64,000 nucleotides of DNA from Coffea arabica (Eukaryota > Streptophyta > Magnoliopsida > Gentianales > Rubiaceae). Positions 2,523 to 61,300 of this stretch are shown here, one piece after another; the stretch's first letter is position 1; every line of letters starts with the position of its first letter. The stretch is taken from assembly GCF_036785885.1 (NCBI RefSeq), contig NC_092329.1, positions 2,294,001 to 2,358,000 of the forward strand, read 5' to 3'. The translations under genes and the position numbers were made by a program. A model generated the notes under the pieces. The model ran no database searches. It was not told the DNA's origin and worked only from the letters and a program-made list of their open reading frames with translations.

Positions 2523-5500
2523 TCAGCCCAATACATCCATGAGCTGATAGGGTTCTCCAAGGCTTTTCCTTTTGGGGGCCCGCTCTTCTTCAACAACCTA
2601 GGCTCAAGAAGTAAATTTTAGTAGTCTAACAGTCCTGAAAATGGAATAGTAAGGGAGGCATTATACCCTATTTGCCATGTCTTGTAAGATTTCAACAATC
2701 TCGGAGAACTCTGGCCTTGAGGATGGATCTTGCTGCCAGCATCTCTCAAGTAATTCCACCACCAAGGGATGAGTTTGCCTTGGTATGGAAGGCCTTAGAC
2801 CCTAGAATCCCCATCACAAAGAACAGCCACCCAAAAGTTAACTAAAATTCTTGATGGATCCTTCCATTTAAGAAATATGCTCTTCATGATGAAAACAACC
2901 ATTCAACTTCTGAAGGTACTTGTTGAGCAATGATATGTCAATCAACGCTAAGGTTTCTAACATAATGGAACATGACATTCATCGATTAACATGGTGACAG
3001 ACATGGAATCCATAGGAGTTGTAGTTCTCTTCACTATTTGAGGAAGAAAGAAAAAAGTCTATATGAGCAATGCAGACTGCTGGGCTGAGGGTGGATAATA
3101 ATCTCGTCACGTCTAAGAAATTACCTTCTGGACCACACCAACTGCTGCTTGTAATGGGGTCATATGCTCATAAGGAAGCTGGCACATCAGAATAAATGAT
3201 CATTGATACATGGAAATCATATATCTACAATCTAAATGGGAATCATCACCTATGTTCCAAGAGTTGAGTGAAGAAATCATTTTAGACAATCTTCCATATG
3301 ACTTAATTAGAGAACTAATAACATTGTAAACAGCAACAGAGTAGGACCTTTGTTGTCAGCAGCTCCCAAAGAACTATTCCAAAGCTGAAAACGTCAGCCT
3401 TATGATTATATGGCTTGTGTTCAATAACCTTCAAGAATCAAAACAAATAAGCAGAATGAGAGCCAACCATATACGACTGAATTGTGTAAAGTACTAATGC
3501 TGACAGTATACTAGGATGGTACTTCCTTGACTATCGATTTCAGGTCACATATAATTTGTAAGGGAAATAATCTCTAAATACTATCAAGCTGCATGAAAAT
3601 AGTGAGTCATAACTGAAGAATGAACTGTGTTATCAACTAACATTGGAAGAGCTAAAAAAAAAAAAAAAAAACTAACATTGGAAAAGGTAATTGTGTTTCC
3701 ACAGAATTCAAAGTAGAGAAGAAAGTTGACCTCAGGAGCCATCCAGCGATATGTTCCTGTCTCAGCAGTCATGACACCAGATTGAACTTGCACTCTAGCT
3801 ACACCAAAATCAGCGATTTTAACTACCTGTCAGTTCATACACGCACACACATACAAAATCCCGTCAGCAACTAAAACCTATCCACAAGCTTGATACAACT
3901 ATTATTCAGATGATGAAAACATTCAAGCAAGCACAAACATATCTTACATTTCTATGAATTATTAATTTGAAGAAGTAACCTCAGGAAGAAAACCATTATA
4001 GCTAGATGTAATTGGCGTTTAGAATGCAGAGACCATAAAACATCCATCTAAAAACAATAATTCATTTACTGACAAACTGAATTCTCTTTTTACTTTCGAT
4101 TAGAAAATGAAAAGCAAAAATCATCTGAGAAAAACAAAGTAATCTTCAAGATCCTTACTTCATTCTCATCCAAGAGAAGGTTGGCTGCCTTAAGGTCTCT
4201 GTGGATTATATTATTCTGGTGCAAATAGCTCATTCCTCTTGCAACATCAACAGCGACTTTGAGTATGGCAGGTAGCTTAAGTACACCATTCTGTTTATGC
4301 AGGAGATCATAGATGCTTCCTCCATGCATATATTCTGAGAACAAAATCAAGAAAGAGAACCAGATAAGGCTGGCTTCCATGATGGACATCTTCAACAAAC
4401 ACAGATAGAAGTATGATTGGAAAGGTGGACCTTGACACTGAAAAAGGATAAACAAAGAAAGAAGTAATTAATCAAATAAATGTTCACAAGATCCATTCTA
4501 AATCAGAGCAGGATTTACCAGTTACAATGCACAAGAGTGGAGGTCTTGTACATGCACCAATAAACTGCACAACATTCTTGTGCCGAACTTTCCTTCAAGT
4601 ACAGAATTACTTGGTTTAGATTGGAGAATCAACAACATAGATGATGGGATCACAATATATAAATAAATCAGCAATATGGTTATATTCCAGTATACCGCAT
4701 AGAGCTGGAAAGGTATGCTTCTGCTAATTGAGATATAACTATATTTTAGTTTTTCTGTAAGTCATGACCATGGAGAAATAATTCTGCTTGGTACAAAACA
4801 AAATGTTTCTCTTTGCTAGAACATAATCACTTAGTGCAAACATTGAAAGCAATAGTCACCTTTCATGTTACTTTCATTATGTATTGATTCTTCTTTAGCA
4901 ATCTACCAACTTATTTCACGCTAAAAACATCCAAGGTAAATCTTGAATGGCAACATGTAGCAATCTTGAAAATTGATTTAAAGCAAAAGTATCACAAAGC
5001 AGCTCTGCAGAACATCATTAGAAAATTTTATTTCTAGGGAATTAGCAGCAGAAATTGATGAACCTATAACAGTCCCAAATTTAAATCAGCAAAAGCCAAC
5101 CATCACGAGGAAATTTTATGTCTAGGGAATTAGCAGCACAGATTCATCAACCAATGGGAAGGGTCCCAAATTTGCAGGATGCAAAACATTCGTGCATCAA
5201 GGACACCATGGGACATTTCTTTCACAAAAATGTTCAGCCAAACTAGGTGCACTTCAGTTACTTTATTTTTTCTTTATTTGTCTGTTAAGAATCATTTCAC
5301 CATGTTAGTAGGTTGCAGACTAAGATCAATATTTATTGGACAGGTGCTTATTCTGTGGTAAACACAGAATACCTTGTCATTGAAGAGATCACAGCAACAG
5401 CATATAATGAACTCAAGAAAATACACTTGTTGAAAAGCGTGCATGGACTTAAGATAAAACAAAAGCTTCTCAATATTATCCAACAAAACTTAGATATACA

Positions 5501-10674: not shown

Positions 10675-11823
10675 AGAGGACTTTCTATCTAGGAACGAGG
10701 CTGCCACGCGCTTCCACAACGTGATTTTCGAGCAATGCACATAGAAGTACTTGAGATTTTAGGGAGGGCAAGCCAGACTCATGAAGTATACTTGCTTGAC
10801 TTGAGTGGGCATTCTTAGATTTTTATTAAATAATTTAAAACAAAAAATCTTTTTCTTGAGGCAAAATTTAATATATTTTTAAGGATACAATAATGATAGA
10901 AAAATTGAACCTGAACTTCCAAAATTCGAGAGGGGACAAAGTCTAATTTTAAAAACATATGGACAAACCTTTTTTAATTGTTAATGGGAATGTTTAAACA
11001 TTTCTAAAATCTTGGAGAGCAGCTGCCACTCCCGCCCCATTGCATCAGCGAATGATACTTGAGTTGAATTTGCTTTGCTTTGCTTTTCTTCGGGTTGGGT
11101 CAATTCTAATTTCATTGCGCCCGTCCTTCTTTAAACTAAAATAGTTCTAAGTTAAAACCCAGAATGTTTAAGAACAATAATGTCCACTCATGACTATGAT
11201 GTGAATTTAGTGGAAAGGTGTGAATTTAGCATCTATCCAAATTGTTCAAGACCTAATTATTTTGTACAAGAGAGCATATTAGTCGAATTAAAAATTGTAA
11301 GACTCACAAAAAGTGAATTTATCCTCGTTAAACGTTAGTCTTCCTCTTACTATTTGTGCATTGTTACTTGTATAACTATAGTGTATATATGTATATATAA
11401 AAAATAATAAAAAAAAAAGACTGATTCTAATTAGAACGCCTCATATTTTTAGAATAAAATATATTTTTAGGATAAAATAACAAGTTTGCGCAGGAATGTG
11501 GGCCAGGAGAGGTGCAAGGAAAGGATATCATGAAGATGCTTGTTCCACTCCCGCAAAGGTCTGGCGGCCCTACCGGGAGACGAGGCGGTGACAAGCCTCT
11601 GGGGAATGTTGCAAGTAACTGTACAAGGATGTCTAGCTTTTCCCAGCGAATCAGGGGCTGTTCACATGGGATTATTGTACCCACCATGGTAACTCGTTAC
11701 AAACTCTCAATGGCTAAAGTCGCACTCCCTGTTCTCGCGAGGGATGCAATTTCCGGATCCACACTCGTTTTATTTTAAGCGACAGATCTTGAATCAAACA
11801 TCTACTAGTTACAATTCTTTGTA
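10675..11823. other. intergenic DNA
   Basis: AT-rich sequence without a recognised gene. The open frames at 11427-11778 on both strands overlap each other and match no family I know. The 9-bp duplication TTCTTTGTA at 11815-11823 belongs to the adjacent Mutator-like element. Confidence 0.45.
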
Positions 11824-12102
11824 GGGAAAATCGCCAATTTAGTCCTCAAACTATTTTACTAAAGTCGATTTGGTCCCTAAAAGTTTTATCGCACCAATTA
11901 AGTTCCTTAACTAAAATACTTGTGCCAATTGAGGGCTTATACGGCGTCGCCACCCAAAACTCATATATCTGTACAGAAAACAACGGCCAGGCAGGGGCCT
12001 TTTTGGAAGTTCGCATCCTAATTTCTACGGGAAGCAAGGCAGAGCCCATTTTGCATCCGAATTGGGGGAAACCTATGAAATTAGGGGTTTTCCAAGACAG
12101 AA
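11824..12102 (+). repeat. left terminal inverted repeat of the PPR-carrying Mutator-like element
   Basis: Complementary to 13486-14138 once the nested MITE is left out. Matching runs from GGGAAAATCGCC to CCAAGACAGAA with scattered substitutions. Confidence 0.9.
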
Positions 12103-12138
12103 TATAGCTGCTAGCATCAGTGGTAATAAATAGTTCAT

Positions 12139-13455
12139 CTACGTTCTACCATTTTGATGCATTTTTCCAGTGAAAATATCCAATCCAATTTGAAGCTTCC
12201 CTACTTTAGTTAGACCTATCAGCAGAGAAGTAGATGTGGAAACAGGAGGAGTAAGACCAAATTTTGTCATTATGTTATACACTTCAAAAGCTTTCTCATG
12301 CAGTCCTGCTCTGCTGTAAGCACAAATGAGCGAATTGATGGCAATTATGCTAACAGGTATGCCCTTCTCAAGCATAGTCTTCAGTAAGTGCAAAGCCTCA
12401 TCTAACCTTCCTGCCCAACACAATCCTGAAATGGACATGTCAGATATTGAACAATCAGGAATCAAAGCCATCATAGATAATTCCCTTAAGAACCTGTTGC
12501 CATCATCTTCCCTCCCATATTTGTAGTTTCCTGCAACCAAAATGTTAAAAGTTATACCATCAGGAGCAACTCTCATATTCCGCATTTCCTCATAGAGCAT
12601 ATTAGCCTCACCAATTTCTCTTGCCTTTACATGGCCATCCATCAAAGCATTGTATGTCACAGTGCCTGGTGAAACACCCATTTCTTGCATTTCTTCAAAT
12701 ATTTTCCTTGCTTCTACAATGTTGCCCTCCTTGCAGAGTGCATTAATAATTGTAACAAATGTGGCAGTGCTTGGTTCACAACCGCTTTCCGCCACAAAAT
12801 GCGCCCAATTCAGAGCATGAGATGTCCAGCCTCTCACACAATATGCACTTATTAGCAAATTATGTGCAATTACATCAGGTTCACAACCATACTTCCTCAT
12901 CAAAAACAACAAGCTTTCTCCTGTTCTAACACACCCTTTTCTACAAAAGCCAAGAATCATCACATTATACACAAAAATATTCGGGCAAGGTCCCCTTTGG
13001 ATCATATCTCTAAATAACTTCCATACACTACCATAATCACCAACTCTAATTAGCGGCGCAAAGAAAATGCTAACAGCTGATAAACTTGGTCTAATTCTGA
13101 CCTTCCTCATTCTATCCCAGATTTTCAATGCTTGGGAACCCATATCTGCATTCACAAACGCCCTCATCAAAGAATCAAGAACCGAGAAATCTGACTCATA
13201 CTTGCTATGCTCTCTCCACATAAACTCTACCAACTCATTACTCCTACATTCACCAATTCTACTAATTACACAAGAGAGAACATCCTGTGCCATCAACCTC
13301 AACCCCTCAGCAGCCAAGACATGTGCGACAATACAACACGACTGGACTATGAATTCCGAAGCATCACAGAAGACCAACTTGAAAAATGCAAATGAGACTT
13401 CGCGGTTTTCAGATAATTTCAAGGTTTCTACAAGCAAATAGGGGCAAACCCCCAA
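12139..13455 (-). CDS. P-class pentatricopeptide repeat protein, truncated copy inside a Mutator-like element
   Basis: PPR proteins bind organellar RNA in plastids or mitochondria. The open frame holds a continuous array of 35-residue P-type repeats, for example VYNVMILGFCRKG, HNLLISAYCVRG, TFVTIINALCKEGNIVEARK, TYNALMDGHVKAREIGEA and TFNILVAGNYKYG. There is no internal stop for about 438 codons. The frame opens just after an in-frame TAG at 13465-13467, and the only near-start codon is a TTG at 13455. The first in-frame ATG is at 13293, giving 384 residues. The N-terminal targeting peptide is missing, and the stop falls 36 bases from the left TIR, so both ends look cut by the element. Captured segment: about 12103-13485. 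It could be expressed as a shortened protein or be a silent gene fragment. No parental copy is in the window. Confidence 0.75.
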   Translation of the reverse strand: MGVCPYLLVETLKLSENREVSFAFFKLVFCDASEFIVQSCCIVAHVLAAEGLRLMAQDVLSCVISRIGECRSNELVEFMWREHSKYESDFSVLDSLMRAFVNADMGSQALKIWDRMRKVRIRPSLSAVSIFFAPLIRVGDYGSVWKLFRDMIQRGPCPNIFVYNVMILGFCRKGCVRTGESLLFLMRKYGCEPDVIAHNLLISAYCVRGWTSHALNWAHFVAESGCEPSTATFVTIINALCKEGNIVEARKIFEEMQEMGVSPGTVTYNALMDGHVKAREIGEANMLYEEMRNMRVAPDGITFNILVAGNYKYGREDDGNRFLRELSMMALIPDCSISDMSISGLCWAGRLDEALHLLKTMLEKGIPVSIIAINSLICAYSRAGLHEKAFEVYNIMTKFGLTPPVSTSTSLLIGLTKVGKLQIGLDIFTGKMHQNGRT

Positions 13456-13485
13456 TTTCTTCCGCTATTTGCATGTAAAATGGGT

Positions 13486-14138
13486 TTCTGTCTTGGAAAA
13501 CCCCTAATTTCACGGTTTCCCCCAATTCGGATACAAAATGGGCCCTGTCTTGCTTTCCGTAGAAATTAGGATGCGAACTTTCAAAAAGGCCCCTGTCTGG
13601 CCGTTGTTTTCTGTATAGATATATGAGTTTTGGGTGGCGACGCCGTATAAGTCCTCAATTGGCACAAGCATTTTAGTTAAGGAATTGGAAAAAAAACCTG
13701 AGCGGCCACTAAACTATTGGTCAGATCATGTTTTGGCCATCAAACCATTTTTCGTCAATAATTGGCCACTAAACAACTTAATCAGTAAGTCCGTGACCAT
13801 TTAGTCAATAATTACTCTTAATCTATGAAATTAGCATTACACGTTGCAAAGCACAAGGGTAATTTTGTCTAACAACTACGCGACTCTATTTCATAGATTA
13901 ACTGTTAATTTCATCAATTAAGAGTAATTATCAACTAAATGGTCATGAGTTTACTGATTAAGTTGTTTAGTGGCCAATTACTGACGAAAAATAGTTTGAT
14001 GGCCAAAACATGATCCGACCAATAGTTTAGTGGCCGCTGAGATTTTTTACCCTAAGGAATTTAATTGGTGCGATAAAACTTTTAGGGACCAAATCGGTTT
14101 TAGTAAAATAGTTTGAGGACTAAATTGGCGATTTTCCC
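13486..14138 (-). repeat. right terminal inverted repeat, interrupted by a nested MITE
   Basis: Reverse complement of the left arm at 11824-12102. It is split at 13687-14052 by a MITE with its own target duplication. Without that insertion the arm is about 278 bases. Confidence 0.9.
13687..14052. mobile_element. Mutator-type MITE nested in the Pack-MULE right TIR
   Basis: A 366-bp element with inverted repeats of roughly 130 bp. The left end reads AAACCTGAGCGGCCACTAAA and the right end, reversed, AAATCTCAGCGGCCACTAAA. The 9-bp target duplication TAAGGAATT is at 13678-13686 and 14053-14061. Removing the insert and one duplication copy restores continuity with the other TIR arm, so this insertion came after the host element. 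It has no coding capacity. Confidence 0.92.
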
Positions 14139-14147
14139 TTCTTTGTA

Positions 14148-15900
14148 CCTTACGATCTATTTTAAACGCGAACCACTCCTGAGTTTTGGGATCAGTATTG
14201 CAAACACCTCTTGTGGTTCTTCCTTCCCAATATGATAGTGTATTAGCTAGGGTATCCGATCCCTGGACCATTGAACTGATCCAATCGGTATTTTATGGGT
14301 CAATCTTTTTTTTTTTTTTTGACTCTTATCCGACTCACATATTAGCGATTATTCGATGCGGGAGTCTGAATATTGGATACCAGTGAGAGCCGGATTAATG
14401 GATACTCGTTCCGTCTAGCTCATCGTTTAAGTTTTTTAAAAAATAAATTATACTAATTTAATTTTATATTTTACATATTCATCTAAAACTCAACATAAAT
14501 TTTTTCTAGCAAAAATCTCGTTGAGAAATAAACATGCAAAGAGAATACAAGAGAAAGGGAAAAAACAAAAGAATTCAAAACAAATGAAAATTTAAAATAA
14601 ATAGTACCATTTTTTTAATATATATCTTCACATCAATTAAACTCTTTCCTAAAAAAATATAAGATTATGACCTATACAAATTAATCTTATAAACAGACCA
14701 TAGTCTGTAATTTATTCGATAAAATTACTTAGTTATTTCTAAAAATATTGTTTTATAGTATATGTATAAAAATGAAAAAAAATAAAAAACATATATGCAA
14801 GGCTAGTCAAGCATTCGCAAGTTCTTAATCCCATGACTCTAACCTATATAGCATATAAACAGGTACCCGACTTTATTTAACTTGGTCAAATCATACAGAT
14901 CGGATACCCTATTTTTGGGATTGGATCAAATCGAATATCGCGAGTTTTTAAATATTATTTAAAATAAACCGCTGACTCAAACCATATGAAATAATCAACA
15001 CAACTTTTCAATAAGGTTGAAAGATGAATCGAACTACTCAATATTCGAATCGACTTCAACTTGATTTGCCAACTAATCAATCCAAAATTGAATAATGTTT
15101 TATATTTGATAATATTCAAATTCGACAAAAAAGTTCGTTCAAATTCGATTTAACAAATAAGCAATCTAAATTTGAACAAAATTTATAACTCGTATAAATA
15201 ATCAAACAAATTTAAATTTGATTTGATTAGACTCATTTACGTTACTACTTTTCAATCGGCTAAAGTCAATAGAGAAGGCATGCCCGATTGATGGTTAAAA
15301 GTGAAAAAGATCCTTTACTCCTTCCATGCCGTAGTATCCCTCCATAATGCTGTCACGAAGTAACTGCATGGCTTCAGGGAGTCACTTCTTTGAATTGAAG
15401 TTGATCCATTGCATGCCGGTAAATCAATTAATAGTTGGCCAACCGTAGACAAAACAGTCCGGCCGGTGAGTCTGATGGGAGATTCCACAAATAGGAATTA
15501 ATATACTACTGCCAAACTGCTCAGAGGAAGGAAAAAAGCAGAGAGTGGACAGTTATGGGGTGATTCCTTTCTTCATTGAATTCATTGCAGATAGAGATGA
15601 AGGAGAGAATATTGTGACTTTAATTGGGGTCGTGGGTTGCCATTAATGGTCCGGTCCTCCTTTCCTGAATCTTGGGTTTGGTGGTCGACGGTTTTAATTC
15701 AATGCACAGATGCCCTTCTCTCTTTCTTCTTCTTAAAAAAAAATGACAGGACCGAAATATAGTCGTTCCCTTTCCCATTTCCCATCCATTTCTCCTTGTC
15801 TTCTACAAAACCATAACCCAAAAAAAAAGAAGAAAAAACAAATCCTTTCTCCTTCCTCTTCTTCTTCTTCATCGCAATACTTCTGACCGATGATCAGAGC
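14148..15900. other. intergenic DNA, AT-rich repeat remnants
   Basis: From about 14400 to 15240 the sequence is degenerate and rich in TCGAATT/AAATTCGA-type words, resembling the stretch at 54070-54420. It is probably an old dispersed repeat of unknown class. From about 15580 it becomes pyrimidine-rich and probably forms the 5' part of the MIR171 transcription unit. No protein-coding gene is recognised. Confidence 0.4.
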
Positions 15901-15919: not shown

Positions 15920-16081
15920 AATTTTGAAATAGTCACTGTGATATTGGTCCGGTTCACTCGGATGTTGAGGCGCGCTTTGCACTATTTGTTTTGCGCTGAA
16001 GGCGTATACGCAAGCAAGCCTTGTCCAGTAGTACTATAAACAATCTGATTGAGCCGTGCCAATATCTTAGTGTCTTTTCAT
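15920..16081 (+). ncRNA. MIR171: MIR171 primary hairpin
   Basis: The 3' arm at 16046-16066 is a perfect 21-nt miR171 (TGATTGAGCCGTGCC followed by AATATC). The 5' arm at 15940-15962 (GATATTGGTCCGGTTCACTC...) pairs with it with few mismatches, and the predicted star at 15942-15962 has the usual 2-nt offset. Pairing extends beyond the duplex (AGTCACTGT against TTAGTGTCT), and the loop is about 80 nt. Known role: miR171 directs cleavage of HAM/SCL6 GRAS transcription-factor mRNAs and so controls meristem and branching programmes. The pyrimidine-rich DNA from about 15710 is the likely transcript leader. I could not place the start or end of the primary transcript. Confidence 0.93.
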
Positions 16082-22708: not shown

Positions 22709-23215
22709 ATGGCCACTGTCACCTCCGCTGCTGTTTCCATCCCATCATTCACCGGCCTCAAGGCCTCCGGTGCACCAGCTTCTAGAGTGAGCAGCAGCAC
22801 TGTTAAGGTCTTTGCTGCCTCTCCCAAGCTCGCCGTGAAGGCTTCCCTCAAGGAAGTAGGTGCTGCTGTAGTTGCTACTGCTGCCAGTGCAATGCTCGCA
22901 ACCAACGCCCTGGCCGCCGAGATCTTGCTTGGTTCTTCTGGTGGCGAGCTGATTTTCGTCCCAAGCGAGTTCAGTGTGGCTTCTGGAGAGAAAATTGTTT
23001 TCAAGAACAATGCCGGGTTCCCCCACAATGTAGTGTTCGATGAGGATGGAGTTCCTTCCGGTGTTGATGCATCTAAGATCTCCATGTCGGAGGAAGACCT
23101 TCTCAACGCACCAGGAGAGACCTTCTCGGTCTCTTTGACAGAGAAGGGAACTTACAGTTTCTACTGTTCACCTCACCAGGGAGCCGGCATGGTTGGCAAA
23201 GTCACTGTTAACTAA
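22709..23215 (+). CDS. PETE: plastocyanin precursor, chloroplast thylakoid lumen
   Basis: Copper protein that carries electrons from cytochrome b6f to photosystem I in the thylakoid lumen. Single exon, 168 residues, standard length for eudicots. Residues 1 to about 70 form a bipartite transit peptide: a stromal part rich in Ser, Ala and Lys, then a hydrophobic Ala-rich lumenal signal ending NALAA. The mature protein starts at about 71 with [15 protein letters not shown]. The copper ligands are all present: H106 in FPHNVVF, C153 and H156 in [10 protein letters not shown], and M161. The ATG at 22709 sits after a pyrimidine-rich leader. It is tail-to-tail with the phospholipase D gene, whose stop lies about 570 bases downstream on the other strand. 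Confidence 0.98.
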
Positions 23216-41580: not shown

Positions 41581-41974
41581 CACAACGGATCTTCTGTCCC
41601 ACATCCTGTGCTATTCTCTGTCCCACTTTTTATTATATTGCTATTTCTCCTTCATAAACATCATGTTTATGTTCTTTTTTGTTTCATTAAGATCCAATAA
41701 CTATTAATTTAGTAATAAATAAATACAACAGCTTCAAAAAAATAATATATAATAGAAAATTAAAAAATATAGCAGAAAATGCATAAAAAATCTCATTTTT
41801 TATGCATTTTGATTTTTTGAGTTTGTTAAATTTTGTGTATTACTGAATTAATAGTTATTGGATTTTAAGGAAATAAAAAAGAACTAAAACATGACGTTTA
41901 TGAAAGAGAAATAGCAATATAATAAAAAGTGGGACAGAGGATAACACAGAATGTGAGACAGAAAATCCGTTGCT
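41581..41974. mobile_element. Mutator-type MITE, copy 1 of the CAACGGATC family
   Basis: 394 bp, AT-rich, with inverted ends CACAACGGATCTTCTGTCCC / AGCAACGGATTTTCTGTCTC. Flanking 9-mers GTGTTTGGG (41572-41580) and ATGTTTGGG (41975-41983) look like a 9-bp target duplication with one change. A second copy lies at 46554-46951. The interior contains a nested palindrome around TTTTTTATGCATTTTGATTT and paired ATCCAATAACTATTAAT segments. No coding capacity. Confidence 0.82.
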
Positions 41975-44165: not shown

Positions 44166-46544
44166 GTCAAAAGAACAAACTGGAAGATTCACCAGCAAAT
44201 TACACAATTCAATTGGCTGTGTGAAACTCTGTAACATAAAAGCAAAAGAAATATAGCTTATTTATTTATTTCTTTCTGTTTGTAGTCTAGTTACTTGAAG
44301 TAGTTTCGGCGGTTAATCAAGCTTTAATTTTATCACGCCACAATTCTGTTTTAAGACCGAAAATCATTGTATTTCTCCGTCTGGTTCTCCATCGGAACTG
44401 GGGGGTCGAAAGCTTTCATTTGGAGTCGATATGCCATAAAACTGAAGCTTTATTTACTCAATTGCAATTCTGATAGGAAATCCTACGCAGGATCAATAGC
44501 AAGCAACTGATGACTAAAATCGAAGATCCCTTAAATATTCCAGCAAGCATGGTTGATCAGGGTTGATAATCAAGAATAGGCAGTGTTTGGGGTGGAGAAC
44601 GTCCAACGTTAGACAGAACTGCAGGCTACAGCCTTTGGTGCCATATGTACTAGAAGTTTTACATAAAACCATTGGGAATAGAAAGCAAAGATAGCAAATG
44701 TTGATTTCGTTTGCGAAAATGAAAGTCCAAAGCTTAATCAGTCGTACTAATCAGCTACAGCCGGGTATCATGAACACCTGCAATCGACAAGAAACTAAAG
44801 TTAATTAACTCGCAGGATGGCACGTGCCCGCCCCAAGTGTGGACTGAATTTAGGAGCACCACCAAAATAATGCCAAAATTGTGAATAAGATTCTACTAGT
44901 CTTATATAGATCTTAATCCATCATGTCATGTGTAACTATTGTCAGGACTAACTATTGTCAGGACTAAATGCAGCCAGCTACGTAAGTTCCACGAAATCTC
45001 CGATTGGACAAATCAAAGGCAAATATTGACTTGTATAAATCTGTAAGAGTACTCTCCCCCTTGGATTTTGGATAAAATTCCAAATTGTGGAGCGATTTGT
45101 AGAGCAAATACACGATTATGCTTTAAGGAGGTATCCGGGTATTCTGAAATTGTAAGCCTCAGATGCACTATAATGTGTATATTTACAAAACAAACATATA
45201 ATTATTTTAACGAAGGTAGATACTAGAACAACAATGTGTAAAAAAACATAATAAATATTTCTAAGCTGATAAAAATTGTATTACACAGTCAATTTCATTG
45301 ATTCATTTTTTTTTAAAACATTAATTTGTAGATGGTTTGTAGGCAACACAAAAAGGAAAAGAATTTCAATTTATTAAAAAAACATAAGGCTTTGATTATT
45401 CAATTGTTTAGATGGTTACCGCTGTTCTGTTTCTTTCTTTTTTTCCCTTAGCAACTGTTGCAAATAGTCTGACTTTATAATTTCTAAGGGTCGACAAAAA
45501 AACTCATTGACGTGTTGACTCGCAGAATCCATCCCAATTTCATTCTGAAATACCCGATTCACATTTTTTAACCGGGTTAGAAGAGGGTCGAGTGTCGGCT
45601 TATATGCGCAACGGGTTAGGAGTGTCGGCTTATAGTGCCCGACCTCCTCCTAAATATATATATACACACGCACATTTTTTACAGCTAACTAAGAAATTTC
45701 TTTGAGCAAATTGCAACCTAAATATAAGAGATTATATTTTGTTGACAATATTCACTTGTAAAGGTGATGATCTTATTTTTTTGAGAAAATGGTTAATTGA
45801 TGTAGAATATATATATATAAAGGTAATGCTCATCACAATTTTCATTGATTTTGGATTCTTTAATTTTTTTTCCATTCTCTTTGAATGTTTGTTTCTGGGA
45901 ATGAGACCTTTCTTTTGGATAAAATTTATATTGAATTTTAGATGAACATGTGAAAGACAAAATTGAATTAGTATAAATTATTTTTTTAGAAAAATTAAAT
46001 GATGAGAGGGACGGGATGAGATGGGTAGCAATTGATCTAACCCTCTTTCAGCAAGCATTCGTCGATACGCAAACAAATAAGAATAAAAAATGACTAACTT
46101 ACAAAGTGCAAGTTGAATCAATTAAATGTTACTTGTGCCCACCCCTTTTAATTTGTCCGCCTATGGTTAGGGTCAAAACTATTAAATGACGAAATAATGG
46201 AGCACCAAAATCGGATGCTGGCCTAATTGGTTAAGTCAAAACTAATGAATGACAAAATAATGGAGCACCAACATGAAATGAAATGCAGGAGGCCAACCGA
46301 AAAGGGGAAAAAAAAAGAACAGAGAGATAAAAAAAAAAAAAAAGAAGATGAAATGCACCATGTGAAAGTCTAGAAACTTCAAATTACGACAACTGGTTGA
46401 AAAATCAGGGTGGAATTTTTATTTTTTTTTAAATCCTCCCCCCCCTAAATCCCTGCCAAATTCGAACTCTGGTCAAAGCATCAGAGTGGAATTGTAATCA
46501 TAATCTCACAATGAGACATTTGCATAATTGCATATGCAAGTGCC
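44166..46544. other. intergenic DNA downstream of CDSP32
   Basis: Contains a perfect 16-bp tandem duplication (TAACTATTGTCAGGAC at 44933-44948 and 44949-44964) and a local imperfect repeat with CGGGTTAG...GAGTGTCGGCTTAT at about 45573-45633. The rest is AT-rich DNA with no gene recognised. Confidence 0.4.
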
Positions 46545-46553
46545 GATTTGCAC

Positions 46554-46951
46554 CGCAACGGATCTTCTGTTCCACATCCTGTGCCACTCTCTGTCACACT
46601 TTTTATTATATTGCTATTTCTCCTACGTAAATATCATGTTTTAGTTCTTTTTTTGTTTCCTTAAGATCCAATAACTATTAATTGAGTAAAAAATAAATAC
46701 AGCAGCTTCAAAAAAGCAATATATAATAGAAAATTAAAAAATATAGTAGAAAATTCATAAAAAATCTCATTTTTTTATGCATTTTGATTTTTTGAATTTG
46801 TAATTTTGTATATTACTCAATTAATAGTTATTGGATCTTAAGGAAACAAAAAAAAAAAAACTAAAACATGATATTTACGTAGGAAAAATAGTAATATAAT
46901 AAAAAGTGGGACAGAGAGTGGCACATGATGTGGGACAGAAGATCCATTGCG
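46554..46951. mobile_element. Mutator-type MITE, copy 2 of the CAACGGATC family
   Basis: 398 bp with inverted ends CGCAACGGATCTTCTGTTCC / CGCAATGGATCTTCTGTCCC. It is flanked by a perfect 9-bp target duplication GATTTGCAC at 46545-46553 and 46952-46960. Closely similar along its length to 41581-41974. No coding capacity. Confidence 0.92.
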
Positions 46952-58364: not shown

Positions 58365-61300
58365 ATGGCGAAAGGAAGATTTAGTCGGCAGCAGCATCCA
58401 GGGAAACGGACGTCGACGGTGGCGTTGGTTCTTTCGATGCTTCTAATGTTAACAATCGTGCTATTAATGCTTCTGGCTCTCGGCATTTTTTCTCTCCCTC
58501 TCGGCTCCGACGATGGACCCTACCCTGTCTATGACCGCATCAAGTTCAAGCGCGTCGCTCTCGACATGTTAGACTTTGCTTCTCTCCTTTTCTTTTGCTC
58601 GTTTCCTTTAGCAAAAATGAAACTTTTTTGTTCTATTCCTACTGCATTTACACTGCTATGTTCTTATTTTCCCTCTCCTTTTCTTTTTCCTCCAAAAAAT
58701 AAATAAAATATGCAGCGGTGAGGGAGAAGGCTTGGGGAAAAGAGGCGAACAATGGACGGAGGTGCTCTCTTGGGAGCCTAGGGCTTTTATTTATCACAAT
58801 TTCTTGGTAATATTTCTTTTTTCCCCCCTTCCTTTTCCGTTTCTATGTGAATTGCATCAGAGATACATCAGTTCTCACCCACTGCTTCATTCTTTTTCCC
58901 TTTTACACATTATTTTGCATTAAGACGAGAACTTAGATTAGTATTGGTTCATTTATAGACTTCTCTTGCCAAAAAAGAAAAGATTTTTTTTTGTTTTTTC
59001 ATCTTTCTTTGAATATCAAATGTATCTATAACGTGGTATGAGCTATCTAAAAGCGTTTGCAGAATGAAATTTCAGAAAATATCATGTTTGTTGTAATTTT
59101 GTGCTATCTGAGAGAAAATGTGTTGAAATTATGAATTATATATATTGTTTCTGAAAATGTTGGCTCTGTTTCTCGTTTTCACAGTCTAAGGAAGAATGCG
59201 AGTATCTAATTGATCTTGCCAGACCTCACATGGTTAAATCAACAGTCGTGGATAGCAAAACTGGTCAGAGTAAAGATAGCAGGTTTGTACTGCTCCATTT
59301 CCACATGGTTTCTTGCTTTCACTAAATAGGTGAAAATTGAACTCTTCATTCTTCATTTTTTTTGTCTTTTTTCTAATGATCCACCTATACTATGGAGGTA
59401 ATAATGTCTTATTGCAGGGTGCGTACAAGTTCTGGAATGTTTATGAGGAGGGGAGGGGATAAAGTCATCAGAAACATCGAGAAAAGGATAGCAGACTACA
59501 CCTTCATTCCTGTAGGTATGACAGTTAAAGAGCCATTCATAAAACTTGTCCTCACTGCTGCAGTGCCTGCTGTTATAATAATTAATATGTTCTTATCTAT
59601 GTGCTCTCCTGTAATCTCCTTTCTAGTTGATAGTAAGTCCGTAGAGTTTTTGCTTTGATACTTGGAATTTAATTATCATTTAACGTGGAGGTTCAATATA
59701 AGCACAGCATGAAGTTTGTACAAGTTATAACCTGGTAGCATGGAGATGACATTTTCATGTCTGTGATACTACACAATGTTCAGATCGTATTTACCTAAAG
59801 TCTCTGATTTGCTATTCTTAGAGAATGTTAAATTTCTAGTTCTATGAGTTCCTCTTCATTACAATTTCCTAATCTTACAGAAGTGACGTGAATTATTGAC
59901 TTGTACTCGCACTTAGCTGACAGAAGTTGTTCTGACATGTGACCTGGCTGTAGTATGTTACAATGGAAATGAAGCAACTTGCATTATTCTCTTGTTCTGC
60001 TGAGTTTTTCAAGATTGCTTTTGTGATTAAGTTCTGAGATAAAAGATAGATAGTAGAGTTAATTCTATCTCCTATATGTTATGTTAAATTTGGACAACTG
60101 CTTATCTGTTGCACTAATTATAGATTAAAAGGTAATGCTGACATTGTGGATGCCACATCGTGAATGACTACAGCTGATGCTTCCACTCACGTAGTTAAGA
60201 TAGACCAGTTGGGCACATGTAAAGACCCAATGGTTCCCAAAAGAAGCACATTAGTCAAAAGACATATGATATTGAAAAAATAAACTTAAATTACATCTCA
60301 TCCTTCTTCAGACTCTGTCATTTCTATCAGAGGTCTTTCCATTGTTTCTTTTTCATCCTACTGTCCCTTTCTTAGATGTTTCTTTCTTGCTGTCATGTGC
60401 AAATTCCATCAATGGAATTAAATTGGATGTCATAAAATATTGTTGATGATGAATTCTGCATAATTTTATCGACAAACTTGTTCAGTTATGTGCTGCTTGA
60501 GCTGTGTATCTACCAAACACATGATGATGCTGTTGTAGTTTGTGGTTTGCTATAAACCTAAAATATGACTGTAATAGTCATTTTGATAGAAAGAATGTCT
60601 TTAATGCCCTGAGTAGTGTTCATCGAATTCTATGTGTTACTAGTGCAGGCATCGCCTGACTGACGTTTGATGATACCTTCGTTTTATCGACAAACTTGTT
60701 CAGTTACGTGCTGCTTGAGCTATGTATCTACCAAACACATGATGATGCTGTTGTAGTTTGTGGTTTGCTATAAACCTAAAATATGACTGTAATAGTCATT
60801 TTGATAGAAAGAATGTCTTTAATGCCCTGAGTAGTGTTCATCGAATTCTATATTACTAGTGCAGGCATCGCCTGACTGACGTTTGATGATACCTTCGTTG
60901 TAGAAAAATATGAGGTACCCTTATAGATTTGAATATTTTGCTTGTTATCTCTCAGCTGATATGGTTCGTTTGACGTTGTACTCTCCTAGATTTTTTTTTT
61001 TTTTGGGTGCTTTCTGACTAAACTGAGACTTGTTACAGACCATGGAGAAGGCCTTCAAGTTCTTCACTATGAAGTTGGGCAAAAGTATGAACCTCACTAT
61101 GATTACTTCCTTGACAAATACAACACAAAAAATGGCGGCCAACGTATAGCTACACTTTTGATGTATCTGTGAGTTGTATATCTTTTGTCTACAAATTGGA
61201 TCCCAGCATAGCTGTTAAAACATTGTGCTAACTTGCATTAAGATTAGTTCCTTGTGAAATTCTATTCACTACCTGATAAAGTTTTGGGTTTTTCTTTTCT

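Follow-up and report, generated by a model that had tools for sequence, protein, structure and literature searches.

Among the features that define Pack-MULEs, four are testable here, namely long terminal inverted repeats (TIRs), a target-site duplication (TSD) of 9-11 bp, a host gene or part of one, and no recognisable transposase; a parental gene at another genomic locus and TIRs in common with other MULEs and an autonomous partner also belong to the definition. A eudicot example is PM-ZIBP of tomato, for which three table rows give TSDs of 9-10 bp, outer arms that are 87-94% alike, and a zinc-ion-binding gene fragment of 0.9-1.4 kb; 13 copies carry tandem TIRs and one carries single TIRs (PMC3310237). 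A fragment of a pentatricopeptide repeat (PPR) gene inside a transposon is itself already known, according to the accessible text of a grapevine study, from the CACTA element Cactavine-5, a DNA transposon in which part of a PPR gene is reported in two copies and lies, with a 3' UTR, on the downstream side of the transposase frame, to which it runs in the opposite orientation (PMC2528002). No description of a Pack-MULE with a PPR fragment was found in the accessible portions of the literature on Pack-MULEs and pentatricopeptide/PPR, and no captured PPR genes were found in those of a strawberry study; priority is not claimed.

Here, an element of this kind is described from a 64-kb stretch of Coffea arabica DNA (hereafter the window; GC = 38%). 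It is very probably a Pack-MULE carrying a truncated PPR passenger, the reading frame of which has most likely not been kept by selection for a protein. It resembles known Pack-MULEs in its long TIRs, its 9-bp TSD, its cellular gene fragment, and in that no transposase was seen, and it differs from them in carrying a long PPR fragment and in a foldback MITE nested in one arm. Relative to Cactavine-5, it is of the Mutator type and its interior is filled by the PPR segment. Its parts are as follows.

11815-11823, no strand: target-site duplication, left copy (TTCTTTGTA), identical to 14139-14147
11824-12102, plus strand: left TIR, 279 bp, from alignment to the right arm
12103-13485, minus strand: interior between the arms, 1383 bp, GC 0.40, from the arm alignment
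12139-13464, minus strand: P-class PPR open frame, 441 codons, from Pfam, a motif scan and structure matches
13409-13474, minus strand: 21-codon frame from an out-of-frame ATG, which overlaps the PPR frame at its start
13486-13686, minus strand: right TIR, inner part, ending in a copy of the nested TSD (13678-13686)
13687-14052, no strand: nested foldback MITE, 366 bp, with the 9-bp TSD TAAGGAATT at 13678-13686 and 14053-14061
14062-14138, minus strand: right TIR, outer part, from alignment to the left arm
14139-14147, no strand: target-site duplication, right copy (TTCTTTGTA), identical to 11815-11823

The boundaries of the element are exact (11824-14138; 2315 bp) and coincide with those given in an earlier, sequence-only reading of this DNA. 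That reading had also reported a perfect 9-bp target duplication, and both copies of TTCTTTGTA indeed abut the element termini directly and without mismatch. Its inverted repeats of about 279 bp were recovered at 279 and 278 bp, the right arm being counted after removal of the nested element together with one of its two TSD copies; the splitting of that arm by a 366-bp insertion had gone unreported. The arm alignment spans 279 columns, with 265 matches, 13 mismatches, and 1 gap (K2P 0.049). A second copy of an arm was not found by blastn within the window (E 1e-3), and neither was DNA similar to the interior at the same threshold; at the protein level no other match to the PPR frame was found there, the best other tblastn row having an E-value of 0.67. 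Searches of collections of viral contigs and prokaryote genomes, which are non-plant and thus little informative, returned no instance of one exact TIR pattern in the former or of another in the latter, and of the stretches that fit the pattern for relatives of the PPR protein (14 in viral contigs and 23 in prokaryote genomes), none was confirmed.

All 13 arm mismatches are transitions (P = 0.005 if two thirds are expected), which the sequence-only reading had not mentioned, and on the inward-reading strand 11 of them are G/A changes (two-sided P 0.011, in a test that was picked post hoc). This pattern could have its source in methylated, silenced arms and could include a trace of strand-biased deamination, the sample being small. 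Transitions are expected from methylated cytosines. The element may give rise to small RNAs by which the element itself, and perhaps also the parental PPR gene, would be silenced. It combines inverted arms with a gene fragment in a single unit, and in a review of maize Helitrons, Pack-MULEs, and Sireviruses, captured fragments are described, in the part that could be consulted, as siRNA reservoirs able to silence related transposable elements and donor genes (PMC13317346). By analogy with the literature on other elements, transcripts across both arms could feed siRNAs against the element and perhaps against the parent gene. Transitions by themselves are, however, no demonstration of siRNA, and such a role, though compatible with a Pack-MULE carrying a passenger fragment, is considered possible but on balance doubtful.

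The insertion in the right arm is a foldback MITE with arms of ~150 bp, for which 150 aligned columns contain 135 matches, 14 mismatches (12 of them transitions), and 1 gap (K2P 0.103). It is bordered by two perfect copies of TAAGGAATT, a TSD of 9 bp and thus of the same length as that of the host element; this length suits a Mutator-type MITE, a candidate assignment that draws on TSD length. The MITE was inserted after the right arm existed, and both an insertion before and an insertion after the arrival of the whole element at this site are possible. Nested insertions are common among transposase-bearing MULEs, where the accessible text of one survey gives 36% of 530 maize elements and 41% of 476 rice elements, the latter figure being raised by 107 near-identical elements (PMC3903597). 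Elsewhere in the window, another foldback element of ~390 bp is present in two copies that are 88% alike (41583-41973 and 46556-46950), the former flanked by an 8-bp direct repeat (TGTTTGGG) and the latter by one of 9 bp (GATTTGCAC).

Between the arms, the PPR frame runs from 13464 to 12139 and is open for 441 codons from stop to stop, a length with a chance of ~1e-11 if codons are independent and stops occur at the frequency of the window. It encodes a protein matching PPR_2 in Pfam (2.3e-66); the same scan returned one BTAD match, which is under its curated cut-off. From residue 94 onward, ten windows of 35 residues follow one another in phase up to the end of the frame, the tenth being truncated. 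Their summed score with a PPR motif consensus is 545, whereas 500 shuffled versions of the protein score -152 at best (0 of 500 reach the score). The tandem 35-residue P motifs of a P-class PPR protein are therefore present, although the assignment to the P class is made on a segment without the C-terminus of the parent, where an E/DYW tail would show. The frame is separated from the right arm by 21 bp and from the left arm by 36 bp, the latter in agreement with the sequence-only reading. That reading had described 1.38 kb of uninterrupted coding sequence, which is the size of the interior, the open frame itself extending over 1.33 kb. Its figure of about 438 intact codons assumes a TTG start, the bacterial default of the ORF tool. 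An in-frame ATG first occurs at residue 58 of 441, from which 384 codons remain, and a TAG lies directly upstream of the frame. Upstream of that first ATG, at 13474, is the out-of-frame ATG that begins the 21-codon frame; five consecutive G (13449-13453) lie close to the point where this frame and the PPR frame meet. The short frame may be due to a chance ATG, or it may be the trace of a one-base frameshift near 13449-13453 since capture.

The missing start and the cut final motif bear on whether the segment is a fragment at all. Flanking repeats could instead have moved a working PPR gene, or two independent MULE insertions could have come to enclose one. PPR genes are usually intronless. Moreover, a gene-family table of Arabidopsis transposed genes with flanking repeats, seen in the accessible part of that study, includes 5 PPR genes (0.5%) (PMC2869330). 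Against this, a single perfect TSD surrounds a single matched pair of arms, the frame begins without an ATG, and the last PPR motif breaks off 36 bp short of the arm. An intact gene that was moved or bracketed is therefore considered very improbable. The description of the PPR piece as captured remains putative, resting on its truncation and on the arms that enclose it.

Comparison with solved structures places the predicted protein in the same family. In a sequence search, designed PPR proteins were the best matches and maize PPR10 was the top natural one. AlphaFold2, run on the single sequence, produced a model with 26 helices (mean pLDDT 70.4 and pTM 0.58 for the best of five), in which pLDDT peaks in the middle of the chain, whereas the first ~140 residues and the C-terminus score lower; the remaining four models had mean pLDDT values of 63.1 to 38.1. 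In a Foldseek search, the top match was a designed PPR protein (E 3.2e-16), for which the TM-scores were 0.44 and 0.50 and the rmsd was 12.3. Because of these TM-scores and this rmsd, the predicted model is taken to support the PPR fold family but not the detailed shape of the protein.

A transposase was not detected by Pfam in any of the eight frames of at least 70 codons that overlap the element, and the seven of these other than the PPR frame matched no Pfam family at E 0.1. Thus, all four testable features that define Pack-MULEs are present: TIRs of 279/278 bp, a perfect 9-bp TSD (TTCTTTGTA, twice), a host gene fragment in the form of the PPR frame with its PPR_2 match, and no recognisable transposase. 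Because of this combination, a Pack-MULE is the best reading of the locus, and the element is most likely an ordinary one, an example of an already known kind. The sequence-only reading had named it as such, and the anatomy fits that name well. The same cannot be said of its further suggestion that an intact frame points to recent capture or selection, which is not established and on which the following estimates bear.

If the arms were identical at insertion, ~32 substitutions would be expected under neutrality in the PPR frame at the age given by arm divergence. At that age, the probability of no new stop is 0.56 if nine tenths of changes are transitions, or 0.31 if only C:G to T:A changes occur, and the probability of no indel is ~0.09, a value extrapolated from the one event present in 557 arm bases. 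If stops and indels are independent, the joint neutral survival of the frame is 0.03-0.05; at half the arm-dated age it is ~0.17-0.22, which is unremarkable. Joint survival at the full arm-dated age tilts mildly toward a younger copy or toward constraint, and neutrality is not rejected. Furthermore, the arm clock is unsafe because the nested MITE, although younger than the arm that hosts it, has arms that are twice as diverged (0.103 versus 0.049). Dating by arm divergence is for this reason distrusted, as arm pairs here need not begin identical. An open frame alone is no proof of selection, and the default reading is that of a passenger that has no protein function. CpG depletion of the interior was also considered and then set aside. 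The observed/expected CpG ratio is 0.33 in the interior and 0.79 and 0.95 in the arms, as might be read as decay by methylation since capture; five coding stretches of the window, however, span 0.35-1.07, and the value of the interior is just under the lowest of them.

These considerations also weigh on the proposal that the right TIR drives expression of the PPR fragment and that this fragment has been selected as a new, truncated RNA-binding protein. If the frame were under selection, a transposon would here have given rise to a new RNA-binding protein of the organelle type. The 441-codon open frame, the 26-helix fold of the best of the five single-sequence models, and the joint neutral survival of ~0.03-0.05 at the arm-dated age are all consistent with such a protein. 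However, the first 57 codons lack an in-frame ATG and an out-of-frame ATG lies upstream, the final PPR motif is cut, the other four models are of lower mean pLDDT, and the low survival estimate depends on a poor clock. In addition, the promoter would be expected in the very arm that the nested MITE interrupts. An inward-reading TATA pattern is absent from the left arm (279 bp) and from the inner 201 bp of the right arm, which says little. Transcription from the right TIR would yield a PPR fragment without the start of its parent. Taken together, a selected new protein is judged very improbable. A particular form of it, in which the truncated protein would bind the RNA target of its parent without doing the work of the parent and would be selected as a competitor, is given only the slightest chance.

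The preferred reading, a Pack-MULE with a passenger fragment, can be accommodated by the following sequence of events. A non-autonomous Mutator-like element with long TIRs would have taken ~1.38 kb from inside a P-class PPR gene, possibly through gap repair or template switching between its arms. Mechanisms of this type have been put forward for gene capture, in which gaps are repaired and converted with ectopic sequence (PMC4858842), and for the animal Pack-TIRs, as gap filling or fork switching (PMC8277862), in the accessible portions of both sources. Mobilised by a transposase presumably provided from elsewhere, the element was inserted at its present site by way of a staggered 9-bp cut, as is apparent from the TSD. 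A foldback MITE with a TSD of equal length entered the right arm, as its own duplication shows, and may have done so either before or after the arrival of the element here. The locus presents a cleanly bounded, putative capture of a gene fragment, in a plant transposon one arm of which has itself received a nested insertion. It also carries a warning for annotation, since a frame of 441 codons is easily called a PPR gene.

Several other features of the window were recorded. To the left of the element are protein-kinase exons on the minus strand, one of which (4093-4467) is above the Pfam cut-off and another (3587-3829) below it. An AT-rich repeat of ~300 bp is present in inverted orientation at 14405-14706 and 45729-46020 (74% alike), its first copy lying ~260 bp to the right of the MULE. 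A MIR171 precursor is found at 15930-16078, ~1.8 kb to the right of the element, with 62.8 bits against an Rfam gathering score of 48. Farther along, an uninterrupted frame at 22709-23212 encodes a plastocyanin precursor, the mature part of which matches solved plastocyanins (E 1.1e-51), with 58 matches among solved structures in total; it seems to be of a eudicot type and not of the type found in grasses. Finally, a unit of 218 bp is tandemly duplicated at 60464-60899, its two copies having 97% matches.
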